In this document: positions 7,370 to 16,147 of the stretch, one piece after another
Layout: each line of letters starts with the position of its first letter
How positions within the stretch are numbered: the stretch's first letter is position 1
From: Ruminiclostridium sp.
GTDB lineage: Bacteria; Bacillota; Clostridia; Oscillospirales; Ruminococcaceae
NCBI GenBank assembly: GCA_017624025.1
Contig: JAGANY010000010.1
Span: forward strand, 1 to 41,008
Length of the DNA stretch: 41,008 bases
Direction: 5' to 3'
Notes under the pieces: model-generated
Told to the model about the DNA's origin: nothing
The model's input: only the letters and a program-made list of their open reading frames with translations
Databases searched by the model: none
Program-made: the position numbers and the translations under genes

Positions 7370-7398
7370 CACCTTTTTCCTGCTTTAATCATATTTTA
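7370..7398 (+). promoter_or_regulatory. Sigma-K-type (late mother-cell) promoter of dpaA-dpaB
   Basis: CACC (7370-7373), a 16-bp spacer and CATATTTTA (7390-7398) match the Bacillus sigma-K consensus mACm-N16/17-CATAnnnTA at every defined position. Expected transcription starts about 20 bp before the ATG at 7427. In Bacillus subtilis the spoVF operon is sigma-K-dependent. No competing sigma-A promoter is evident. Confidence 0.65.
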
Positions 7399-7426: not shown

Positions 7427-8239
7427 ATGCGAGATATTATCTTTCTCGGCGGTGACGAGCGTATGCGTTTTGCAAAGGAAAGACTCGGAGAAAAATATAA
7501 CTGCTCGACCGATACAAAAAAAGACAGCAAAGCCTTCGGCTATGCCGTTCTCCCCTTACAGAAAAGTACTGAAAACGAAATAATTTTCGGGACAGATATA
7601 AAATACAATAGTCTCCCACGCTTTTTAAAGAAAAACGCTGTTGTACTTACGGGACATAACTGCCCTTTGCTTAAAAAAATATGCGAGGAAAACGGCTTCA
7701 GCCTTATAAACTATGCCGAAGAAGAGGCTTTCGCTGTGGCTAACGCCGTACCGACAGCCGAGGGGGCTGTTGCAATCGCAATAAACAGCCGTAAGGAGAC
7801 CCTCTTTAAAAGCAACATACTTATAACAGGCTACGGGCGTATCTCTAAAATCCTTTCGGGCTATATGCTTGCCTTAGGCGGAAGGGTAAGGGTTGCCTGC
7901 CGAAAGAAAAGTGACCTTGAATGGGCGGAAACGAGAGGCTTTATCCCCATCGACATAACCGATAAGGACGCATTTCTGAAAGCCTTAGCCTGTTCCGATA
8001 TTATCTTCAACACGGTTCCTGCCGAAATATTCGGAAAAGACGAAATAAACGCTGTTAAAAGCGGAGCAGTATATATCGAGCTTGCCTCCTCGGACGGCTT
8101 CGGAGACGAAAAGCCTAATTTCCCCGTCATTATCGCAAGAGGTCTCCCCGGTAAGACTGCCCCAATAACAGCAGGAAAAATAATCGCCGATACAATTGCT
8201 TCGATAATCGCTGAAAGGAGTGAAAACTATGAACTTTAA
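7427..8239 (+). CDS. dpaA: Dipicolinate synthase subunit A
   Basis: The 270-aa subunit forms, with DpaB, the enzyme that oxidises dihydrodipicolinate to dipicolinic acid in the mother cell. Dipicolinate is then moved into the forespore and gives spores heat resistance. An N-terminal DpaA-type domain is followed by a Rossmann NAD(P)-binding domain with GYGRIS at 135-140. The family signature LPGKTAPITAG lies near the C-terminus. The length agrees with SpoVFA (about 300). AAAGGA lies 8 nt before the ATG. The 3' end overlaps the first 11 bp of dpaB, indicating translational coupling. Expression is predicted from the sigma-K-like promoter at 7370-7398. Confidence 0.93.
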   Translation: MRDIIFLGGDERMRFAKERLGEKYNCSTDTKKDSKAFGYAVLPLQKSTENEIIFGTDIKYNSLPRFLKKNAVVLTGHNCPLLKKICEENGFSLINYAEEEAFAVANAVPTAEGAVAIAINSRKETLFKSNILITGYGRISKILSGYMLALGGRVRVACRKKSDLEWAETRGFIPIDITDKDAFLKALACSDIIFNTVPAEIFGKDEINAVKSGAVYIELASSDGFGDEKPNFPVIIARGLPGKTAPITAGKIIADTIASIIAERSENYEL

Positions 8240-8612
8240 GGAAATAAAGATAGGCTTCGCTATGTGCGGTTCATTCTGTACCTTTTCCCATTGCTTCGAG
8301 GTTCTCGATGAGCTTAAAAGGCTTGGTGCGGAAATCGTGCCGATAATGTCCTTTAACGCCTACAGTATCGATACCCGTTTCGGAAAAGCCCACGAGCATA
8401 TTAAACGGCTTGAGGAGACCTGTGACCGAAAGGTAATCCATACCATCGAGGACGCCGAGCCTATCGGCCCGAAAAACCTTACGGATATTATGCTCGTTGC
8501 AAACTGCACAGGCAACACCCTCGCAAAGCTTGCCAACAGCATAACCGATACAGCGGTTATTGTAAAACGGAAATACGTGATAATGTTTTTCGGATATACC
8601 TGTTATCCTTGA
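8229..8612 (+). pseudogene. dpaB: Dipicolinate synthase subunit B, 5' part (split gene, first 107 codons)
   Basis: The reading frame is SpoVFB up to residue 107 (...CTGNTLAKLANSITDT), then runs into element DNA and ends after about 20 unrelated residues at 8612. The ATG at 8229 follows AAAGGAG at ideal spacing. Flavoprotein-fold features of DpaB are present: GFAMCGSFCTF at the start and a SFNAYSIDTRFG segment. The missing C-terminal half is found, in frame, at 15872-16147. Joining at the shared TAC (8549-8551 and 15871-15873) gives codons for ITDTPVTMAVKSHLRN and a 198-aa protein, about the length of Bacillus SpoVFB. The gene is therefore not decayed but interrupted by an element that can leave precisely. 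As it stands the truncated product should be inactive. Confidence 0.92.
8541..8576 (+). other. Left attachment site (attL) of the dpaB intervening element
   Basis: The chromosomal arm (to 8548, dpaB codons) meets the element arm (from 8552). The shared core TAC is at 8549-8551. The element arm GTTATTGTAAAACGG begins at 8556 and is a near mirror image of the element arm at the other end (15848-15867). ATAAC (8541-8545) and GTTAT (8556-8560) flank a 10-bp centre whose midpoint falls within the AC of TAC. Confidence 0.75.
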
Positions 8613-8661
8613 AAACGCTATGGGTTATAAGGGCAGTTAATATGTTTAAATATAAAATTTA

Positions 8662-8690
8662 TTGATTATTCGCTAAAAATGTGATATAAT
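8662..8690 (+). promoter_or_regulatory. Sigma-A-type promoter for the element's nuclease/methyltransferase genes
   Basis: TTGATT (8662-8667), a 17-bp spacer and TATAAT (8685-8690), preceded by TGA as an extended -10. The leader to 8790 contains an inverted pair AGCGTGT/ACACGCT (about 8703-8737) that could be an operator or hairpin. The promoter lies inside the element, so these genes are expected to be on in vegetative cells. Confidence 0.7.
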
Positions 8691-8789
8691 TATAACTTGT
8701 AACAGCGTGTGGTTTTCTGTCCTTAAAATGACACGCTATGTTGCAGTATAATATATTCAGAAAGTTTTTTTAAAGGAGAGATATTGATT

Positions 8790-9632
8790 ATGGATGAATT
8801 ACAGCGATACTTAAAAACAGCTTCCCCTGACAACATCATCATAGGCGAACCTGATTGCAATTTATTAATAGTAGGTTATGAAGAAAACCGCATCACAAAT
8901 ATCAAAACCATTTTGCTCACAGTAGGCTGTCCCGATATAACCGACACAGATACCTGTATAAACGAGCTTCGTTTAAAATACAGAAACAATAATACCTTTA
9001 AGAACTTGTTTGACCACGGAAAAAAACTTTCTGAAATCGCAGCTATCTCGTTTGTTATGGTTGCATATAAGTCTAAAAATCCTGATGAAATTACTGAGCA
9101 TTATCTTAACTCGATGAATTTCGTTTCAAAGCAGATATATCCTGAACAGACTGAACCGCAGATGCACAGCAGCGATGGCTTTGTTTCTTATGTTTATGGT
9201 TTGCTCGGCAATAGTTTTACTGATGCAGGAACTTGTAAAAGCAAAAACAAATCGTTGGCAGACGCATTTCACGTATGGAGCAGAGAAAAGCTCTCCGCCC
9301 ATATTATCAAACAGGATTTTGACGCAATTTATTGCGGCGAAAAATATGCGATGATTGAAATAAAACGTTCTCCGACCAAGACGCTTGAAAGATGGACTCC
9401 TTATCCCGATGACAAGCGTAACTACGATATTCAGTTCAAGATTTCTCAAATAATGAATGCCCCGTTTTTTACCTTCCATCACAACGGAGTTCCGTGCGAT
9501 GATAACACACGCATAGGCTGTTATAAAATAACTTCAGTAAACGCTTTAAGTAAAAGCTGGATATCGTATAATAAAGAAATCATCACGCTTGAAAACGTTA
9601 TGGACAAGCTTGCGGAGGCAACAAATGAATAA
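8790..9632 (+). CDS. Putative restriction-like nuclease paired with the downstream methyltransferase
   Basis: I do not recognise the family of this 280-aa soluble protein. Around residues 176-192 it has a D-(x)n-E-x-K arrangement (QDFDAIY ... MIEIK), with D176 or D178, E190 and K192, followed by a charged helix with a glutamine (IQFKISQI). That pattern is typical of PD-(D/E)XK nuclease cores. The N-terminal 150 residues show no motif I can name. AGGAGAG precedes the ATG at 8790 at good spacing; a TTG 6 nt earlier is too close to it. The gene overlaps the methyltransferase gene by 8 bp, so the two are cotranslated. A restriction role is inferred from the motif and the partner. Confidence 0.7.
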   Translation: MDELQRYLKTASPDNIIIGEPDCNLLIVGYEENRITNIKTILLTVGCPDITDTDTCINELRLKYRNNNTFKNLFDHGKKLSEIAAISFVMVAYKSKNPDEITEHYLNSMNFVSKQIYPEQTEPQMHSSDGFVSYVYGLLGNSFTDAGTCKSKNKSLADAFHVWSREKLSAHIIKQDFDAIYCGEKYAMIEIKRSPTKTLERWTPYPDDKRNYDIQFKISQIMNAPFFTFHHNGVPCDDNTRIGCYKITSVNALSKSWISYNKEIITLENVMDKLAEATNE

Positions 9633-11478
9633 ACTTAAAATGAAAACCGCAAACAAAGCCGATGAGAATTACCAAAAGCTCGCCGCACTTTTTCCAAATG
9701 CCGTAACCGAAACTATCGACAAAGCAACAGGCGAAGTTATCCGTGCCATAGATAAAGACGTTCTTATGCAGGAAATAAACACAGCCGTTGTTGAGGGTAA
9801 GGACGAGCGATACCAGTTCACCTGGCCGAATAAAAGCAAGTCTATCCTTCTCGCAAATTCGCCCATCGAAAAAACTCTCCGCCCCTGCCGTGAAGAAAGC
9901 GTTGACTTCGATAGCACGGAGAACCTCTACATAGAGGGCGATAATCTTGACGTCCTAAAGCTCCTTCGTGAAACCTATCGGGGCAGGATCAAAATGATCT
10001 ACATAGACCCACCCTATAACACAGGCAACGACTTCGTTTACAACGACAACTTTACTGTTAGTACAAAAGAATATCTCGCAAACAGCAAACAGCTCGACAA
10101 GGATGGCAACTGCCTTGTCGATGACCTGGAAAGCAGCGGCCGTTTCCATACCGAATGGCTTAATATGATATATCCGAGACTGAAGCTTGCAAAGGAGCTG
10201 CTCAGCGAGGACGGTTCAATATTTATAAGTATTGACGATAACGAAATTAAAAACCTTATAAAAACCTGTGATGAGGTTTTCGAAGAAAAAAATTTCGTTG
10301 CTAATATTGTGTGGCAGAAAAAATATGCTGCCACAAACGACGCCAAGGGTTTTTCAACGACCCACGACTATGTCGTTGTATATGCAAAAAATATTGACCG
10401 TTTTGACAGAAATCTTCTTCCCCGTACTCCTAAACAAAACGCACCGTATAAATACGATGACGGTGACGGCAAGGGATTATGGAGAAGTGATAATATGCTT
10501 GTAAAAACATTTTCACAATCAGCTGTTTATCCAATCACAAATCCCAATACAGGAAAAGATTATTATCCCCCCGAAGGCAGCTGCTGGCGGGCAAGCAGGG
10601 AGACTATGAATGTATGGCTTTCAGAAAACAGAATATATTTCGGAAAAAACGGAAAAGGTGCTCCCCAGCTGAAAAGATATTTAAACGAGGTTCAGCAAGG
10701 CAGAGTTCCTATCACTTGGTGGAATTTTGAAGAAGCCGGTCATAATGACGCTGCCAACAGAGAGGTTAAAGCACTTTTTGAAAGCAAACCGCCCTTTGAT
10801 ACGCCAAAACCAACAACATTGATAAAGCTGATGCTGTTAATCGCCTCAAAGCCGGATTCGATAATTCTGGACTTTTTTTCCGGTTCTGCTACAACCGCTC
10901 ATTCGGTTATGCAGTTAAACGCAGAAGATGGCGGTAAACGAAAATTTATTATGGTTCAGCTTCCCGAGGTATGTTCGAAAGGAAGTGCCGGCTTTAAAGC
11001 CGGCTACAAAAACATCTGTGAGATAGGCAAGGAAAGAATACGCCGTGCAGCAAAAAAAATAGCTGATGAAAACCCCTGTGCAAAATTCGACGGCGGTTTC
11101 CGTGTTCTTAAGCTTGACAGCTCAAATATGAAGGACAGCTACTATAATTCCCCTGAATCCGATGCATCTCTTTCGGAAAAGACTGATGACAATATCAAAG
11201 AAAACAGAACTCCCGAAGATTTACTGTTCCAGGCTATGCTGGACCTCGGTATTCCCCTTTCAAGCAAGCTTACCGAAAATGTTATTGATGGTAAAAAATT
11301 GTTCAACGCCGAGGACAATTGCCTTATTGCCTGCTTTGACAAGGAACTTACCGATGAAATAATAACAGCAGCCGCCAAGCAGAAGCCTGTTTATTTCGTT
11401 ATGCGTAAAAGCACATCAACGGGATGCGAAAAGATTTTCGCCGCATACAGCCCGAATACAATAGTAAAGTATTTATAA
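9625..11478 (+). CDS. Type III-like DNA adenine-N6 methyltransferase (Mod)
   Basis: The 617-aa protein carries the beta-class order of methyltransferase motifs: catalytic DPPY at 128-131 (MIYIDPPYNTGNDF) followed much later by the SAM-binding DFFSGS at 416-421. The flanks match type III Mod subunits: an N-terminal LFPNAVTE start, FTWPNKSKSILLANSPIEKTLRP, a target-recognition region of about 230-400, and the C-terminal FRVLKLDSSN and FAAYSPNT segments. The start ATG at 9625 follows GGAGG. Type III Mod is normally followed by a helicase-nuclease Res of about 900-1000 residues; none is here, and the next gene is opposite. The overlapping upstream gene may supply the nuclease, or the enzyme may be an orphan. 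Confidence 0.9.
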   Translation: MNKLKMKTANKADENYQKLAALFPNAVTETIDKATGEVIRAIDKDVLMQEINTAVVEGKDERYQFTWPNKSKSILLANSPIEKTLRPCREESVDFDSTENLYIEGDNLDVLKLLRETYRGRIKMIYIDPPYNTGNDFVYNDNFTVSTKEYLANSKQLDKDGNCLVDDLESSGRFHTEWLNMIYPRLKLAKELLSEDGSIFISIDDNEIKNLIKTCDEVFEEKNFVANIVWQKKYAATNDAKGFSTTHDYVVVYAKNIDRFDRNLLPRTPKQNAPYKYDDGDGKGLWRSDNMLVKTFSQSAVYPITNPNTGKDYYPPEGSCWRASRETMNVWLSENRIYFGKNGKGAPQLKRYLNEVQQGRVPITWWNFEEAGHNDAANREVKALFESKPPFDTPKPTTLIKLMLLIASKPDSIILDFFSGSATTAHSVMQLNAEDGGKRKFIMVQLPEVCSKGSAGFKAGYKNICEIGKERIRRAAKKIADENPCAKFDGGFRVLKLDSSNMKDSYYNSPESDASLSEKTDDNIKENRTPEDLLFQAMLDLGIPLSSKLTENVIDGKKLFNAEDNCLIACFDKELTDEIITAAAKQKPVYFVMRKSTSTGCEKIFAAYSPNTIVKYL

Positions 11479-11589
11479 TCGGTTAAAGAAAACGACAGCG
11501 TTTTTCTTTCAGATAAATAAGCCGATTTATGAATATCTGCCCTTGATATTTTCGGTTTATACCAACTTGTATAACCGTAGCTTTAAAAT

Positions 11590-11626
11590 AAAAACCCGCG
11601 AAGAAATATTCACGGGTTTTTCTTTT
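11590..11626. terminator. Bidirectional terminator between the methyltransferase and the diguanylate cyclase
   Basis: AAAACCCGCGAA and its near complement TTCACGGGTTTT form a stem with A and T tracts on either side, placed between two converging genes. A second AAAGAAAACG/CGTTTTTCTTT hairpin lies at about 11485-11509. Confidence 0.85.
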
Positions 11627-13539
11627 TATTCAGTTTTAGCCAGCTGTTTCTTTCGCTCTGTCTTATCCTCGTACATACGCTTGTCCGCAATCTTGAAAAG
11701 ATTCTGGATATCGTAATCGTCTTCGACAATACAGTATCCCATAGAGAATCTCAGCGGAACGATTATATTCTTGCCGAGAGAAGCTGTACTTGTGGACTGG
11801 ATATAGCGAAGAGTTTCGAGGGTTCTCATAAGCTCCTCCTCGCTGTCATAATCGTACAGGAATAATACGTATTCGTCTCCGCCCTGTCTTGCGGAAACAC
11901 TGCTCTTTATACCGAAATTGTTTATGAGATTTGCAATCTTCTTAAGGTAGATATCGCCCTTTTCGTGACCGTAGGTGTCGTTTATCCCCTTAAGTCCGTC
12001 GGCGTCTATCATTATTATTGCGCTGTGTCCGAGCTCTTCGGGATTTGCCATAAGCTCTTCAAGGCGTGCGTTGATACCTCGGCGGTTATAAAGCCCTGTA
12101 AGAGTATCGATGTCTCTTTCACGCTCAAGCTCCTTACGCTTATTCATCTCGTCGGTAACATCAACCATAACGCCGAATACAACACCGTCGTTTTCGTTTT
12201 CTTCAATGCGGATATATCTTTTATCTGTGAGGTAGATATTTTCTTCATCCGAAATAGGATTGCTTCTTATACCGTCAATTCGGGTTTTGAAATTGTCAAT
12301 GTCTGTAAGTGCTTCTTTTTCTTCCATACTTTCAGCATTCATAAGAAGCGGTACGTGTCCTGTATAGCGGACAATATTTGACTTTCCGCCGTATTCGTAT
12401 GTACCGATATAGAGATTGGTCTTGCTTAAAATATAGGAGATACGCTTGCTGTTTTCGAGGAGGCTCTTTATCATCGTATTGATGTATTCGCTGAGCTCCG
12501 CAAGCTCCTTACTGCTCTTTACATCAACCTGTGTGTTGAGATTGCCCTCGGAGATAGCAAGAAGCTTTTCGTTGACCTCGTGAAGCTCTCCGACAACGTA
12601 TTTATTAAGATGGTTTGTAACAAGCTTTATAAGGATTAATGTTATCGTTAAAAGGCTCAGCACAATCCAGAGTACCGTTGCGGGCACACGGCGGTAGATA
12701 TGCTGTGCGGTTATTACACAGCCGATATAGTTTCCGTCAAGCTCCGTAAAGATACAGAAGGAAAGAATGCCGTCTATGGTATTATGGAAGCCGTCGGGGT
12801 CGTTTTTTATCTTGTCCATATTAAAGCCCACATCCTCGGCGTTAAGACCTAAATTGTCCATATCCGAAGAACCCAGTATTTCAAAGGTCTCGCTGTTGAT
12901 ACTGTAATAATTAATATCGGGGTTTACACGGAAAAGAGAGAATATATAGGAAAGCTCGTTCTTTTCTGTTATCTTAAGCACGTTTACAGGCTCCATACCT
13001 ATCTGGACGATATATTCTCCGCTTTCGCTCCATATCGCCGAATACTGCATTGGCTTTTCTTCAGCAGTGTTGGGAGTTATATCCTGGACAAGCTTTAAGG
13101 ACTTGTCCGTAAGCATAGGCTTAAAGAACTTTATCTGCTCGCCTGAATCAAATGTAAGATTATAATATTCAGGGTGTGTGCCTGTATAGATTCTGCCTGT
13201 TTTATCGAAAAGATGTATTTCATCAATTTCAACCATTTCGGCTATTTTTTTAAGACCTTCAAGGTCATTCATAACCGCCGGGTCTTTCTCAATAATATGA
13301 GAAACCGTTTCGGCGTTATTGAGACAGGTCTCGTTATATTCGGCTTCGATTTCTTCAAGCTCCTTCTTATTTTCAAGAAGCACCTGTTCTATCTGACGAA
13401 GCGTGCGGTGTGAATCATCAACAGCACGGTACTGTTCGGTAATAAACTGTACGGTTGCGAGGAACACAAGAATCGCTGCAATAAGAATAAATGTTATCCG
13501 ATACAGGTACCTGCGTATTATTTTATTTAAAGGCTTCAT
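11626..13539 (-). CDS. Membrane-bound diguanylate cyclase (GGDEF) with an extracytoplasmic sensor and HAMP-like linker
   Basis: The 637-aa protein has a membrane helix at about 14-33, an extracytoplasmic sensor region of about 34-284 that looks like a Cache-type fold, a second helix at about 285-308, a HAMP-like segment at about 310-362, a PAS-like region, and a GGDEF domain at about 475-637. Catalytic features are kept: DADGLKGIND (D512, D514) and GGDEY at 553-557, where Tyr for Phe is a tolerated change. No RxxD inhibitory site lies upstream of GGDEY, so product feedback may be absent. It should make cyclic di-GMP in response to an external signal. It is the largest cargo gene of the dpaB element and is unusual there. 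AGGAG precedes the ATG, and a perfect promoter lies at 13613-13641. Confidence 0.9.
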   Translation of the reverse strand: MKPLNKIIRRYLYRITFILIAAILVFLATVQFITEQYRAVDDSHRTLRQIEQVLLENKKELEEIEAEYNETCLNNAETVSHIIEKDPAVMNDLEGLKKIAEMVEIDEIHLFDKTGRIYTGTHPEYYNLTFDSGEQIKFFKPMLTDKSLKLVQDITPNTAEEKPMQYSAIWSESGEYIVQIGMEPVNVLKITEKNELSYIFSLFRVNPDINYYSINSETFEILGSSDMDNLGLNAEDVGFNMDKIKNDPDGFHNTIDGILSFCIFTELDGNYIGCVITAQHIYRRVPATVLWIVLSLLTITLILIKLVTNHLNKYVVGELHEVNEKLLAISEGNLNTQVDVKSSKELAELSEYINTMIKSLLENSKRISYILSKTNLYIGTYEYGGKSNIVRYTGHVPLLMNAESMEEKEALTDIDNFKTRIDGIRSNPISDEENIYLTDKRYIRIEENENDGVVFGVMVDVTDEMNKRKELERERDIDTLTGLYNRRGINARLEELMANPEELGHSAIIMIDADGLKGINDTYGHEKGDIYLKKIANLINNFGIKSSVSARQGGDEYVLFLYDYDSEEELMRTLETLRYIQSTSTASLGKNIIVPLRFSMGYCIVEDDYDIQNLFKIADKRMYEDKTERKKQLAKTE

Positions 13540-13569
13540 TTATTTCTCCTGTATGATTTATATAAACAT

Positions 13570-13589
13570 ATTGATATTTAATTATCAAT
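13570..13589. repeat. Inverted repeat in the diguanylate cyclase leader, candidate operator
   Basis: ATTGATA and TATCAAT form perfect 7-bp arms around 6 A/T bases. It lies between the promoter (13613-13641) and the ATG at 13539, a position suitable for repression. Confidence 0.55.
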
Positions 13590-13612
13590 ACGGAATTTTA
13601 TATATATAATTT

Positions 13613-13641
13613 ATTATACCATTTCGGGCTTAATGTGTCAA
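13613..13641 (-). promoter_or_regulatory. Consensus sigma-A promoter of the diguanylate cyclase gene
   Basis: On the minus strand TTGACA (13641-13636), exactly 17 bp, then TATAAT (13618-13613): a perfect match. The diguanylate cyclase is expected to be made in growing cells from within the element. Confidence 0.85.
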
Positions 13642-13693
13642 TGATATTTCAAAGTGAAATTTCAATTACTAATAAAAACCCTGTTTCTTTTAT

Positions 13694-13831
13694 TTATACA
13701 GGATTAAGCATACGCCTGTACATATCCGCCATCGCCCTTGCAACAATCTCCCTGCTCCCTTTTTCGTCCTTTGTGATTATGTAAATATTTTTCGGGATGT
13801 TTTTCTTACGCTTCGGTTCCGAACTATTCAT
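13694..13831 (-). CDS. Small basic protein, 45 aa, next to the recombinase
   Basis: A 45-codon frame begins with ATG at 13831 directly after GAGGAGAAATTT, a strong ribosome-binding site. The product is basic (11 Lys/Arg against 5 Asp/Glu). It has a short KRKK cluster near the N-terminus, a beta-like stretch (NIYIIT) and an amphipathic helix (REIVARAMADMYRRML). I do not recognise it. It lies between the diguanylate cyclase and recombinase genes, divergent from the latter. Small basic proteins beside large serine recombinases can be directionality factors, such as SprB of SP-beta, but no sequence resemblance is claimed. Confidence 0.6.
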   Translation of the reverse strand: MNSSEPKRKKNIPKNIYIITKDEKGSREIVARAMADMYRRMLNPV

Positions 13832-13937
13832 AAATTTCTCCTCATAGCCTGTTTTTCAATATTCGCTTTTTTTCAAGCTTATGAGATAATCGATTGTCCT
13901 TATTACAAAAAAAGCTTCGGGTGACGCATCTTTAGTC

Positions 13938-14062
13938 GGAATATTCTTTGTAAAAATCCGCTCATAATATGAAATAAAAAATTTGAATTTCACCCTTTAC
14001 CTTTCTATACAGGGAATTTTTTTCACAATCCGACCGACTTCCCCCTCAATTTGTAGTATAAT
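13938..14062 (+). promoter_or_regulatory. Upstream region of the recombinase gene; weak promoter candidates
   Basis: TATAAT at 14057-14062 lies 28 bp before the ATG but has no recognisable TTGACA 17 bp upstream, which would suit an alternative sigma factor or an activator. Further up, AATATT (13940-13945) and CATAATAT (13963-13970) resemble sigma-E elements, but the 17-bp gap is longer than usual. Neither is convincing alone. The contrast with the consensus promoters of the other element genes suggests the recombinase is not constitutive. Confidence 0.25.
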
Positions 14063-14090
14063 AAAACAAATCTACAACGGAGGTGGTTGT

Positions 14091-15713
14091 ATGAAATTCG
14101 CTATCTACTCACGAAAATCCAGATTTACAGGCAAGGGGGAATCAATCGGCAACCAGATAGACGAATGCCGAAGATATATAATGACCCGTTTTCCCGACGC
14201 AAAGGAAAGCGACATTTTCATTTACGAGGACGAGGGCTATTCGGGTAAGAATACGAAGCGTCCACAATTCCAGCAGATGATGACGGAGGAGGAAAGAGAG
14301 CCTTTCGATTTAATAGTTGTTTACCGCCTTGACCGAATAAGCCGTAATATGGCCGACTTTGCAGTGCTTATGGATAAGCTTACAAAGAAAGACACTTCCT
14401 TTTATTCCACAAACGAGAGATTTGACACATCCACACTTTCAGGTCAGATGATGATGACGATTTCCGCCGCCTTTGCCCAATTTGAACGTCAGATAATTGC
14501 CGAGCGTGTAAGGGATAACGTCTATAAACTCGCTAAAACAGGCCGTTGGCTTGGCGGTACTCCGCCCCTCGGATTCCACGCTGAAAAGGTAGAATTTGTT
14601 GACGATTCAGGCGAAGAACGAAGATGTTGTAAGCTTACAGAAAACGAAGAAGAAATTGAAATTGTACGTCTTATATATGCGAAATATCTCGAAACACATT
14701 CCATAACAAAAGTAAAGACATATATGATGAACAGCGGTTATAAGACCCGTCTGAACGCAAATTTCCACGTTTCAACCCTTCGCTACATACTCACAAATCC
14801 AACCTACTGTACAGCAGACATAAAGAGCCTCGAATTCTTCCGTAGCAAGGATTGTGACATTGCAGATATCGATGAAAAATGTAATGGCGAGCGTGGATTT
14901 ATAGGGTATAAAAAAACCTTGACCCAAAACGATGATAAGCGTGAGGCAACCGATATGTCCGAATGGACAATAGCCCTCGGAAAGCACAAGGGAATTATCC
15001 CCAGCAAAGACTGGATTGAGGTACAGAATATCATCGAGGGCAACTCCGAAAAGAAGCTTGGTTTCCGCCAGTCCCACAATTCAGTTGCACTTCTTTCAGG
15101 TGTGCTTCGCTGTAAATGTGGAAGCTATATGCGCCCTAAATATTACAAGGCAAATAAGGACGGCGAAAAGCCTTTCACCTATATGTGCGAGCTTAAAGAA
15201 ACAAGCAAGCGTCAACAGTGCGACTGCCAGAATGTCAACGGAAGAGTTGTTGACAAAATGGTTTGCGACGCACTTCTTGACTATGAAAATGACAGTGGTG
15301 TTTTTGCGAAGTATGTGGGCGAAATTGCCCACATAGGAAGCAAAAACGAAAACATAGCAAACCTTATCAAAAACCAGACAGCAACTATCGCAAAAAAGAA
15401 AAAGACCATTTCCGGTCTTTTACGAATGGCAGGAGATGACGACAATCTCACCGCCGAATATGTCCGTGATGAAATAGCTCAGCTTCACAAAGAAATAGGA
15501 GAAGCCGAAAATGAAATCAAGCGTCTTGAACGTCTGAAAAAGAGCGGCGAAACTCTTTCGGAAGCTGTAAACAGCACCGAGGAAATGCTTAAAGCATTCA
15601 AAACTGGCTTTGATAAAATGAGCGTTGAAAATAAGCGTACATTTATACGCAAGTGCGTAAGTAAAGTCGAATGGGACGGAGAAAACATCAGCGTTTTTCT
15701 CCTGGATAGATGA
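14091..15713 (+). CDS. Large serine recombinase, predicted excisionase of the dpaB element
   Basis: The 540-aa site-specific recombinase has a resolvase catalytic domain at about 1-150 with the nucleophile S10 in IYSRKS and the arginine cluster YRLDRISR (R79, R82, R85). A recombinase DNA-binding domain follows at about 155-250, then a zinc-ribbon domain with CKC at 341-343 and further cysteines at 366-379, a coiled coil at about 423-500, and a C-terminal beta segment. This is the order found in large serine integrases and in the skin recombinase SpoIVCA. The ATG at 14091 follows GGAGGTGG; a longer frame from 13983 lacks such a site. The gene ends 158 bp before the right core, the usual place for the enzyme acting on the adjacent att site. 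No consensus vegetative promoter is seen. Confidence 0.95.
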   Translation: MKFAIYSRKSRFTGKGESIGNQIDECRRYIMTRFPDAKESDIFIYEDEGYSGKNTKRPQFQQMMTEEEREPFDLIVVYRLDRISRNMADFAVLMDKLTKKDTSFYSTNERFDTSTLSGQMMMTISAAFAQFERQIIAERVRDNVYKLAKTGRWLGGTPPLGFHAEKVEFVDDSGEERRCCKLTENEEEIEIVRLIYAKYLETHSITKVKTYMMNSGYKTRLNANFHVSTLRYILTNPTYCTADIKSLEFFRSKDCDIADIDEKCNGERGFIGYKKTLTQNDDKREATDMSEWTIALGKHKGIIPSKDWIEVQNIIEGNSEKKLGFRQSHNSVALLSGVLRCKCGSYMRPKYYKANKDGEKPFTYMCELKETSKRQQCDCQNVNGRVVDKMVCDALLDYENDSGVFAKYVGEIAHIGSKNENIANLIKNQTATIAKKKKTISGLLRMAGDDDNLTAEYVRDEIAQLHKEIGEAENEIKRLERLKKSGETLSEAVNSTEEMLKAFKTGFDKMSVENKRTFIRKCVSKVEWDGENISVFLLDR

Positions 15714-15842
15714 ATTCAGCACTAATTCTCCGTCAAAGTGTAAACAAAAAATCTGCACCCAATCCATAAACGAAAGATTGCGTTTGTTTTTTGTACACTT
15801 TTTCCGACGGAGAATTAGTGCAAGGCACGAGGTCATCTATCC
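15704..15842. repeat. Long nested inverted repeat between recombinase and attR
   Basis: GGATAGATGA (15704-15713, the end of the recombinase gene) pairs with TCATCTATCC (15833-15842). Inside it, GCACTAATTCTCCGTC (15719-15734) pairs perfectly with GACGGAGAATTAGTGC (15806-15821), and an inner AAAGTGT...ACAAAAAA arm continues the pairing. The roughly 140-bp palindrome could terminate transcription, protecting the 3' part of dpaB, or act in recombination. Confidence 0.85.
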
Positions 15843-15847
15843 GCAAT

Positions 15848-15881
15848 GTTTTCCATTTTCTAATAACTGCTACGCCAGTTA
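15848..15881 (+). other. Right attachment site (attR) of the dpaB intervening element
   Basis: The element arm (15848-15867) ends in CTAATAAC, followed by TGC, the shared core TAC (15871-15873), and then dpaB sequence GCCAGTTACAATGG. Reading the element arm outward matches the left element arm at 15 of the first 18 positions. TAAC (15864-15867) and GTTA (15878-15881) again flank a 10-bp centre with AC at its midpoint. Confidence 0.75.
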
Positions 15882-16147
15882 CAATGGCGGTAAAAAGCCA
15901 TCTCCGCAACGACAGACCCGTACTTCTTAACATTGCCACAAACGACGCTCTCGCCGGAGCCTCGAAAAACATTTTCTCGCTTATAAACTACAAGAACTAT
16001 TATTTCGTGCCTATGACCCAGGATGATTATGTAAAAAAGCCCTGCTCCCTTATGGGCGATTTCGGCTCGATACCTGTGGCTTTACGCTACGCTTACGAAA
16101 AGAAACAGCTTCAGCCTGTCATAGGGGTCGATAGCCACAGCTCTTGA
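15872..16147 (+). pseudogene. dpaB: Dipicolinate synthase subunit B, 3' part (codons 108-198)
   Basis: From the ACG codon at 15872 the frame encodes the C-terminal half of SpoVFB: PVTMAVKSHLRNDRPVL, then ATNDAL, KNYYFVPMTQDD, KKPCSL and a final KKQLQPVI. All are strongly conserved in the family (Bacillus has STNDAL, FFIPFGQDD, KKPNSM, QQLQPI). There is no start codon or ribosome-binding site of its own: the open frame upstream of 15872 runs through element DNA and is not a real N-terminus. Together with 8229-8551 it makes a 597-bp gene. Stop is TGA at 16145-16147. It is intact, so selection appears to maintain it. Confidence 0.92.

Follow-up and report, generated by a model that had tools for sequence, protein, structure and literature searches.

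A cassette splitting the dipicolinate synthase gene dpaB in Ruminiclostridium carries a serine recombinase from a family found beside split sigK genes

In the 41,008 bp stretch of Ruminiclostridium sp. DNA analysed here (contig JAGANY010000010.1, the window hereafter), the dipicolinate synthase gene dpaB is interrupted between codons 107 and 108 by what is probably a mobile skin-type large serine recombinase (LSR) cassette, retargeted from sigK and likely excised in the mother cell such that dpaB is rebuilt. The architecture and ancestry of this cassette are solid, and its programmed excision is something we infer strongly. The anatomy of the element, its recurrence at a single dinucleotide and the place of its LSR among those of split sigK genes together make the skin-type cassette the best reading. 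Dipicolinate is a chemical that hardens spores and the dpaB product is one part of its synthase; if excision is programmed, dipicolinate synthesis, and hence spore heat resistance, would depend on DNA rearrangement.

The dpaAB locus

The dpaA-dpaB operon (spoVF), which is expressed in the mother cell, spans 7427-16147 on the forward strand. Beginning from its 5' end, it contains an intact dpaA for dipicolinate synthase subunit A (7427-8239; DpaA_N domain; NF006162, E 2.6e-50, below the curated cut-off), codons 1-107 of dpaB (8229-8549; NF006161 positions 1-115, E 2.2e-41) and, beyond an intervening element at 8550-15871, codons 108-198 of dpaB with the stop codon (15872-16147; NF006161 positions 105-191, E 5.8e-29). 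The frame of the 5' half continues for about 20 more codons inside the element, to a stop at 8612. A sequence-only reading of this DNA had described two intact halves in one frame, the first ending at 8551, around an insert of 7,322 bp; the halves, the frame and the insert length agree with our results, and the end of the 5' half is corrected to 8549, since 8551 counts in the TAC (8549-8551) that is common to both sides of the split.

Rejoining the flanks yields a computed junction of 597 bp encoding 198 aa, which aligns without a gap over 198/198 residues to an intact metagenomic DpaB (P0001, 86% identity), the two proteins being identical across ITDTPVTMAVKSHLRND, i.e. over the joint. This gap-free alignment bears out the expectation that the halves can be rejoined at the shared TAC in line with the known protein, while the stretch common to all loci is AC. 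In a search of 5.8 billion proteins with the joined DpaB, the 8,000 candidates richest in common words were scored, and none of the 120 proteins listed is a closer intact allele (best 86%). The genome's own dpaB matches, as listed, are the two halves only, so the absence of a second intact dpaB, a check named beforehand, holds for an assembly that is 58% complete in 66 contigs, and at that completeness a second copy may lie elsewhere in the genome. Split dpaB genes have pN/pS ratios of 0.10-0.24, inside the 5-95% range of intact genes (0.087-0.288), as expected of live genes and equally of recent insertions.

Element anatomy and cargo

Five proteins of the element were scanned. From the left end these are a 280 aa protein (8790-9632, forward) with no family match in domain, family and PADLOC/PHROGs profile searches; a type III-like DNA methyltransferase (9625-11478, forward; PADLOC MTase_III, E 3.6e-222; N6_N4_Mtase), for which no Res partner was recognised; a HAMP-GGDEF, diguanylate cyclase-like protein on the reverse strand (11626-13539; domain matches); a 45 aa reverse-strand protein (13694-13831) that is a tentative directionality-factor candidate, with homologues in the G148 and G192 elements; and a 540 aa LSR with Resolvase, Recombinase and zinc-ribbon domains (14091-15713, forward), assigned by domain matches, family model and tree. 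The LSR gene adjoins the 3' half of dpaB, as the sequence-only reading had it, with 161 bp between its aligned end and that half. Between the LSR gene and attR, repeat analysis finds a hairpin with 16 bp perfect arms (15719-15821, forward); a similar insertion is present in split genome G173 and absent from the other six.

No phage structural genes were recognised among these five proteins with PHROGs, where all matches are to methyltransferases, integrase, invertase or, over the GGDEF protein, unknown families; the element does not class with prophage-like elements of the vfbin and SP-beta kind, which carry recognisable phage genes. The best NCBIfam match of the LSR is CcrB, at 147 bits against a cut-off of 900, which does not make it a Ccr recombinase of SCC. 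Repeat analysis found no long direct repeat flanking the element, and its G+C content is unremarkable except for one A+T-rich kilobase (13001-14000). In G148, G173 and G192 (L069, L073, L075) a helix-turn-helix protein is encoded at the left end of the element, starting close to attL; it is absent from the window's element.

Attachment sites

Junction comparison and attP symmetry place attL at 8530-8571 and attR at 15852-15893 (both forward), with AC at 8550-8551 and 15872-15873 as the predicted crossover dinucleotide. When the flanks are exchanged, the predicted attP has 16 of 20 complementary positions around AC and the predicted attB has 11. Random AC-centred pairs average 5.05, reach 11 or more in about 0.6% of cases and reach 16 in 0 of 200,000; moving the attP junction by 1-6 bases leaves a symmetry of only 2-10. 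Codon 108 starts with AC at the joint in 7/7 left and 11/11 right junctions read, a set that includes three genomes outside the genus (G032 and G016 in the family, G262 in the order). Because the 5' tblastn query itself stops at codon 107, the ends of its alignments alone cannot place the break, which the dpaB model limits place independently at about positions 94-115. Neither attP nor attB has a match in viral contigs, and no excised joint or circle was seen there; a degenerate att pattern finds 8 stretches in these contigs, with an LSR in none. The locus thus shows a mother-cell gene interrupted, halves that can be rejoined in frame, and a serine recombinase near one end of the element with att sites, all of which are marks of a skin-type element.

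Recurrence in the genus

Among 71 genomes of the genus, 49 carry a full dpaB, providing the related uninterrupted genes that the sequence-only reading had looked to for comparison; eight have halves only, and 14 have none recognisable (two of them match weakly, through other flavoproteins), which means that dpaB can be lost. The eight split cases among 57 dpaB-bearing genomes are G000 (the window), G148, G154, G157, G158, G173, G174 and G192. Measured on the dpaB model, the 5' pieces of these genomes reach to positions 113-115, and the 3' pieces begin at 94-105. Both halves were seen in five of the eight, and the 3' half alone in three; both are open in 5/5 genomes showing both, and the 3' half is open in 8/8. 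The halves lie on separate contigs in G173 and G192. In G158 (L072) a single contig carries them 8.8 kb from each other and on opposite strands, through inversion or misassembly.

An LSR gene lies 59-164 bp upstream of the dpaB 3' half, in the same direction, in 8/8 of these genomes. A family model built from the eight LSRs scores at least 892 bits in the split genomes and 551 bits for the next best in the genus; the high scores of its own members are by construction, and the result is the absence of the family elsewhere, its presence being 0/49 in genomes with intact dpaB (none above 542 bits) against 8/8 in split ones. Five of the seven further split genomes were found again under differently named records. 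The element had been taken for an independent clostridial case: clostridial it is, but it is not isolated, being one of eight splits at the same codon in the genus, and the cassette family has moved between species.

As far as sequence reaches, the LSR is the sole gene found in all of the elements; those of G154, G157, G158, G173, G174 and G192 are only partly covered, so that other common genes may be missed. The G148 element is a 40 kb island, rich in polysaccharide genes as read from translations; that of G174 carries a type I restriction system and a PemK-like toxin gene, that of G158 a conjugative coupling protein, and that of G154 a TPR protein. Synonymous divergence (dS) of the LSR is 0.40 against 1.7-1.8 for host genes in the pair G148/G192, and 0.62 against 2.46 in G000/G174, with LSR dN/dS ratios of 0.04-0.09. 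LSR dS values so far below those of the hosts indicate that the family moved between species; they also mean that the insertions may be recent, so that intact halves do not prove function. Vertical inheritance of a split kept by purifying selection would have spoken for function, but these same dS values do not support it, and we dropped the proposal.

Ancestry of the recombinase

Relatives of the LSR were taken as the best 80 of at least 541 confirmed candidates in contigs representing one genome per species, with the best 80 of 130 relatives on phage contigs as a control. Of the former, 64 lie within 1.5 kb of a sigK half, seven within that distance of a dpaB half, and nine are unassigned; 71/80 are thus beside half of a mother-cell sporulation gene, compared with 3/80 phage-contig relatives. 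Five of the seven dpaB loci are from the query genomes themselves, and without them the count is 66/75 beside a sigK or dpaB half. None of the 80 has an intact contiguous sigK nearby, both sigK halves were seen 2.7-11.5 kb apart in 12, and the median distance from LSR to sigK 3' half is 80 bp (n=53). Cultured species with an LSR of this family beside a split sigK include Sporomusa ovata DSM 2662 (L101) and [Clostridium] viride DSM 6836 (L105). The sigK model also matches sigma-E and other sigma factors, and its hits did not enter these counts.

In a tree of 65 rows, picked by hand and built by a quick method, the eight dpaB LSRs group with six LSRs from sigK, two from spmA-like genes and four unassigned ones in a supported clade of 20 rows, itself nested in a supported 50-row clade with 31 LSRs at sigK. 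L030, L145 and L148 are on long branches and uncertainly placed. In the spmA-like cases (G160, and contig C92 of G158) the gene next to the LSR is a 5' fragment encoding a Gate domain, which from sequence likeness we take to be spmA. These neighbourhoods (64/80) and the tree make the recombinase kin to the LSRs of sigK elements and support, with the anatomy, a skin-type element.

LSRs of the family also lie beside sigK 3' halves in Faecalibacterium prausnitzii (L144) and Gemmiger formicilis (L164). Both genera are usually regarded as non-sporing, and these LSRs are perhaps remnants of lost sporulation.

Control of excision and alternative readings

A motif scan identifies a sigma-K-like promoter of dpaAB (AC-N17-CATATTTTA, 7371-7398, forward) ending 28 nt before dpaA, in accord with the earlier proposal of a sigma-K promoter ahead of the dipicolinate genes. 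CATANNNTA occurs within 130 nt before dpaA in 42/50 genus genomes, where mononucleotide shuffles give a mean of 3.9 and at most 12; the longer form AC-N14-18-CATANNNTA occurs in 27/50 (1.1 when shuffled). A scan restricted to sigma-K-like sites finds 0 in the window's element, where 3.3 are expected by chance, and such a site precedes the LSR in 0/8 split genomes. The regions upstream of the LSRs contain a sigma-A-like pattern in 5/8, the window's own not among them. In a study of Clostridioides difficile (PMC5025042), the LSR of skinCd is constitutive and sigma-A-driven and its directionality factor is under sigma-E and SpoIIID; sigma-A-like LSR promoters would fit that scheme by analogy.

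No sporulation-controlled directionality factor was recognised in the window's element. Homologues of the 45 aa protein occur in 3/71 genomes (the window, G148 and G192), all with split dpaB. These proteins of 45-61 aa are true homologues in the three elements and are absent from five of the eight split genomes, so we retain them as a lead and not as the factor.

Under the skin-type reading, the LSR would recombine attL with attR at the AC dinucleotide, and the two dpaB halves would rejoin into a 198-codon gene in the mother cell during sporulation. As for skinCd and SP-beta, excision would probably call for a directionality factor whose production is confined to the mother cell, and the forespore would keep the cassette, which would thereby be inherited.

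The element may instead be a plain mobile-element insertion that uses conserved dpaB sequence as an integration site and knocks the gene out, with excision rare and untied to sporulation, an account we regard as unlikely. It would agree with the movement of the LSR family between species, with LSR promoters that are sigma-A-like in 5/8 and sigma-K-like in none, with an element free of sigma-K-like sites, and with the 14/71 genomes without a recognisable dpaB, about eight of which keep spoIVA. A general integration habit, however, does not predict that 71/80 relatives (against 3/80 on phage contigs) lie beside mother-cell genes, nor does it sit well with dpaB halves that are open wherever both were seen (5/5) and a 3' half open in 8/8. 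skinCd, whose LSR is likewise constitutive and sigma-A-driven, undergoes programmed excision (PMC5025042).

SpoIVA was also tried as a test of sporulation. The window's genome encodes SpoIVA at full length, together with a sigma-E-like factor that scores just short of its cut-off. The test is not decisive, SpoIVA being full in 5/8 split genomes, in pieces in G157 and not found in G148 and G158; of the 14 genomes that lack dpaB, eight have it as well, one of them only in part.

Quite improbable is a reversible cassette without developmental control, somewhat like SCC, that leaves at a low rate in growing cells and gives a mixed population. Variable cargo with restriction-modification genes, a fixed site, CcrB as the best NCBIfam match and sigma-A-like LSR promoters fit such a cassette, and a precedent exists in the yin element, whose excision was observed in a fraction of the cells at every stage of growth (PMC10747680). 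The CcrB match, however, reaches only 147 of the 900 bits at cut-off, the 64/80 relatives beside sigK halves tie the clade to sporulation genes, and the presence of the LSR family in 0/49 genomes with intact dpaB means that no excised-and-kept state was seen. Misjoining of two contigs within dpaB is scarcely credible even in a genome 58% complete in 66 contigs, because the joint between LSR and 3' half recurs in seven more genomes, five of them refound under differently named records, and the two element ends form a symmetric attP.

Other split sporulation genes

An order-level dpaB search covered 394 genomes, and ten with weak or partial best scores were followed up. In another family of the order dpaB is broken more than once. 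G262 (L081, L082, L083) has it in pieces 15-107, 108-about 132 and about 130-192, with an LSR gene just upstream of each piece and the first 14 codons not located. G244 (L276, L080) has codons 1-13, about 14-150 and the rest, with two elements between that each have their own LSR, one of them carrying a MobA/MobL relaxase. G032 (L030) has a 2.7 kb element at the same dpaB codon as the window, with a 14 bp shared core, a transporter-like gene and a short, 359 aa LSR in reverse orientation that ends at the junction. In two further Clostridia (L145, L148), a 39%-identical LSR precedes a 3' part of dpaB by 45-722 bp; in these the dpaB similarity begins near codon 115, not 108.

Three mother-cell genes (dpaB, spoIVA and sigK) are split in G157 (L289, L291, L292, L079): the 3' end of spoIVA lies 17 kb off, behind type I restriction genes and a 615 aa LSR, and the 5' half of sigK lies beside a 532 aa LSR, its 3' half not being located. 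G151 (L290) has an intact spoIVA and, 5.4 kb downstream, a second copy of its last 94 codons, matching the split point of spoIVA in G157; no LSR match was found in that stretch, which is perhaps an element that restores the 3' end of spoIVA. G160 (L293, L294) combines an intact dpaB with a sigK divided over two contigs; the 5' half borders an LSR fragment where its contig ends, and the second contig carries the 3' half. In G119 (L035) about 4 kb of DNA, including a serine recombinase gene, separates the parts of dpaA.

These loci lead us to a broader proposal, which we hold tentatively and which could well prove wrong. The skin-LSR clade may have radiated over mother-cell genes (from sigK to dpaB and spmA) of mostly uncultured Clostridia, exchanging cargo freely, with other LSR elements doing likewise in spoIVA and dpaA. 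The mother cell would then be a true soma, trimmed at several loci at once (three genes in G157; dpaB broken at three places in G262), a resistant spore would need several programmed excisions, and defence and other islands would find safe harbours in sporulation genes. Gene-intervening elements of sporulation have so far concerned few genes in few species; here one LSR family is at sigK halves (64 of the best 80 species-level relatives) and has a branch in dpaB at one dinucleotide in eight species of one genus. The set offers natural LSRs with predicted att sites and an instance in which a recombinase was retargeted from one host gene to another, which makes it possible to test directly why mobile elements settle in the genes of the mother cell.

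Comparison with known systems

The SCC cassettes of staphylococci resemble the window's element in their fixed site, LSR and variable cargo, and in CcrB being the best NCBIfam match. They differ in that this match falls far below its cut-off (147 bits against 900) and in that SCC sites leave their target gene working, whereas the window's target is broken mid-gene. The gin element in gerE of Bacillus cereus ATCC 10987 (PMC5595907) is likewise a non-prophage element with restriction-modification genes in a mother-cell gene, but is 28.6 kb long and has three recombinases and a known directionality factor, with another target and host.

The skin elements in sigK (skinBs of B. subtilis, skinCd of C. 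difficile) resemble the window's element in that each interrupts a mother-cell gene and carries a serine recombinase, and, for skinCd, in sigma-A-driven LSR expression, comparable to the sigma-A-like promoters of 5/8 LSRs in the dpaB family (PMC5025042). That 2016 paper describes the skin element as an exception in clostridia, and no clostridial dpaB case was found in the open-licence literature searched. The window's LSR falls within a clade found beside sigK halves. Unlike skin, the window's element targets dpaB and has no recognised directionality factor, its cargo is variable and in the window non-phage, and its family moves between species.

The original study of vfbin, in Bacillus weihenstephanensis KBAB4, is reportedly that of Abe in 2013. 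In that strain, according to later accounts (PMC4191935, PMC10747680, PMC5595907), excision of vfbin from spoVFB (dpaB) during sporulation rebuilds the gene. The likeness lies in the interruption of the same gene; compared by description, vfbin is presented there with phage-related genes, whereas the window's element, whose host is a clostridial MAG, has no recognised phage structural gene. vfbin in Bacillus spoVFB is the closest known case, and the window's element differs from it in cargo, host and spread.
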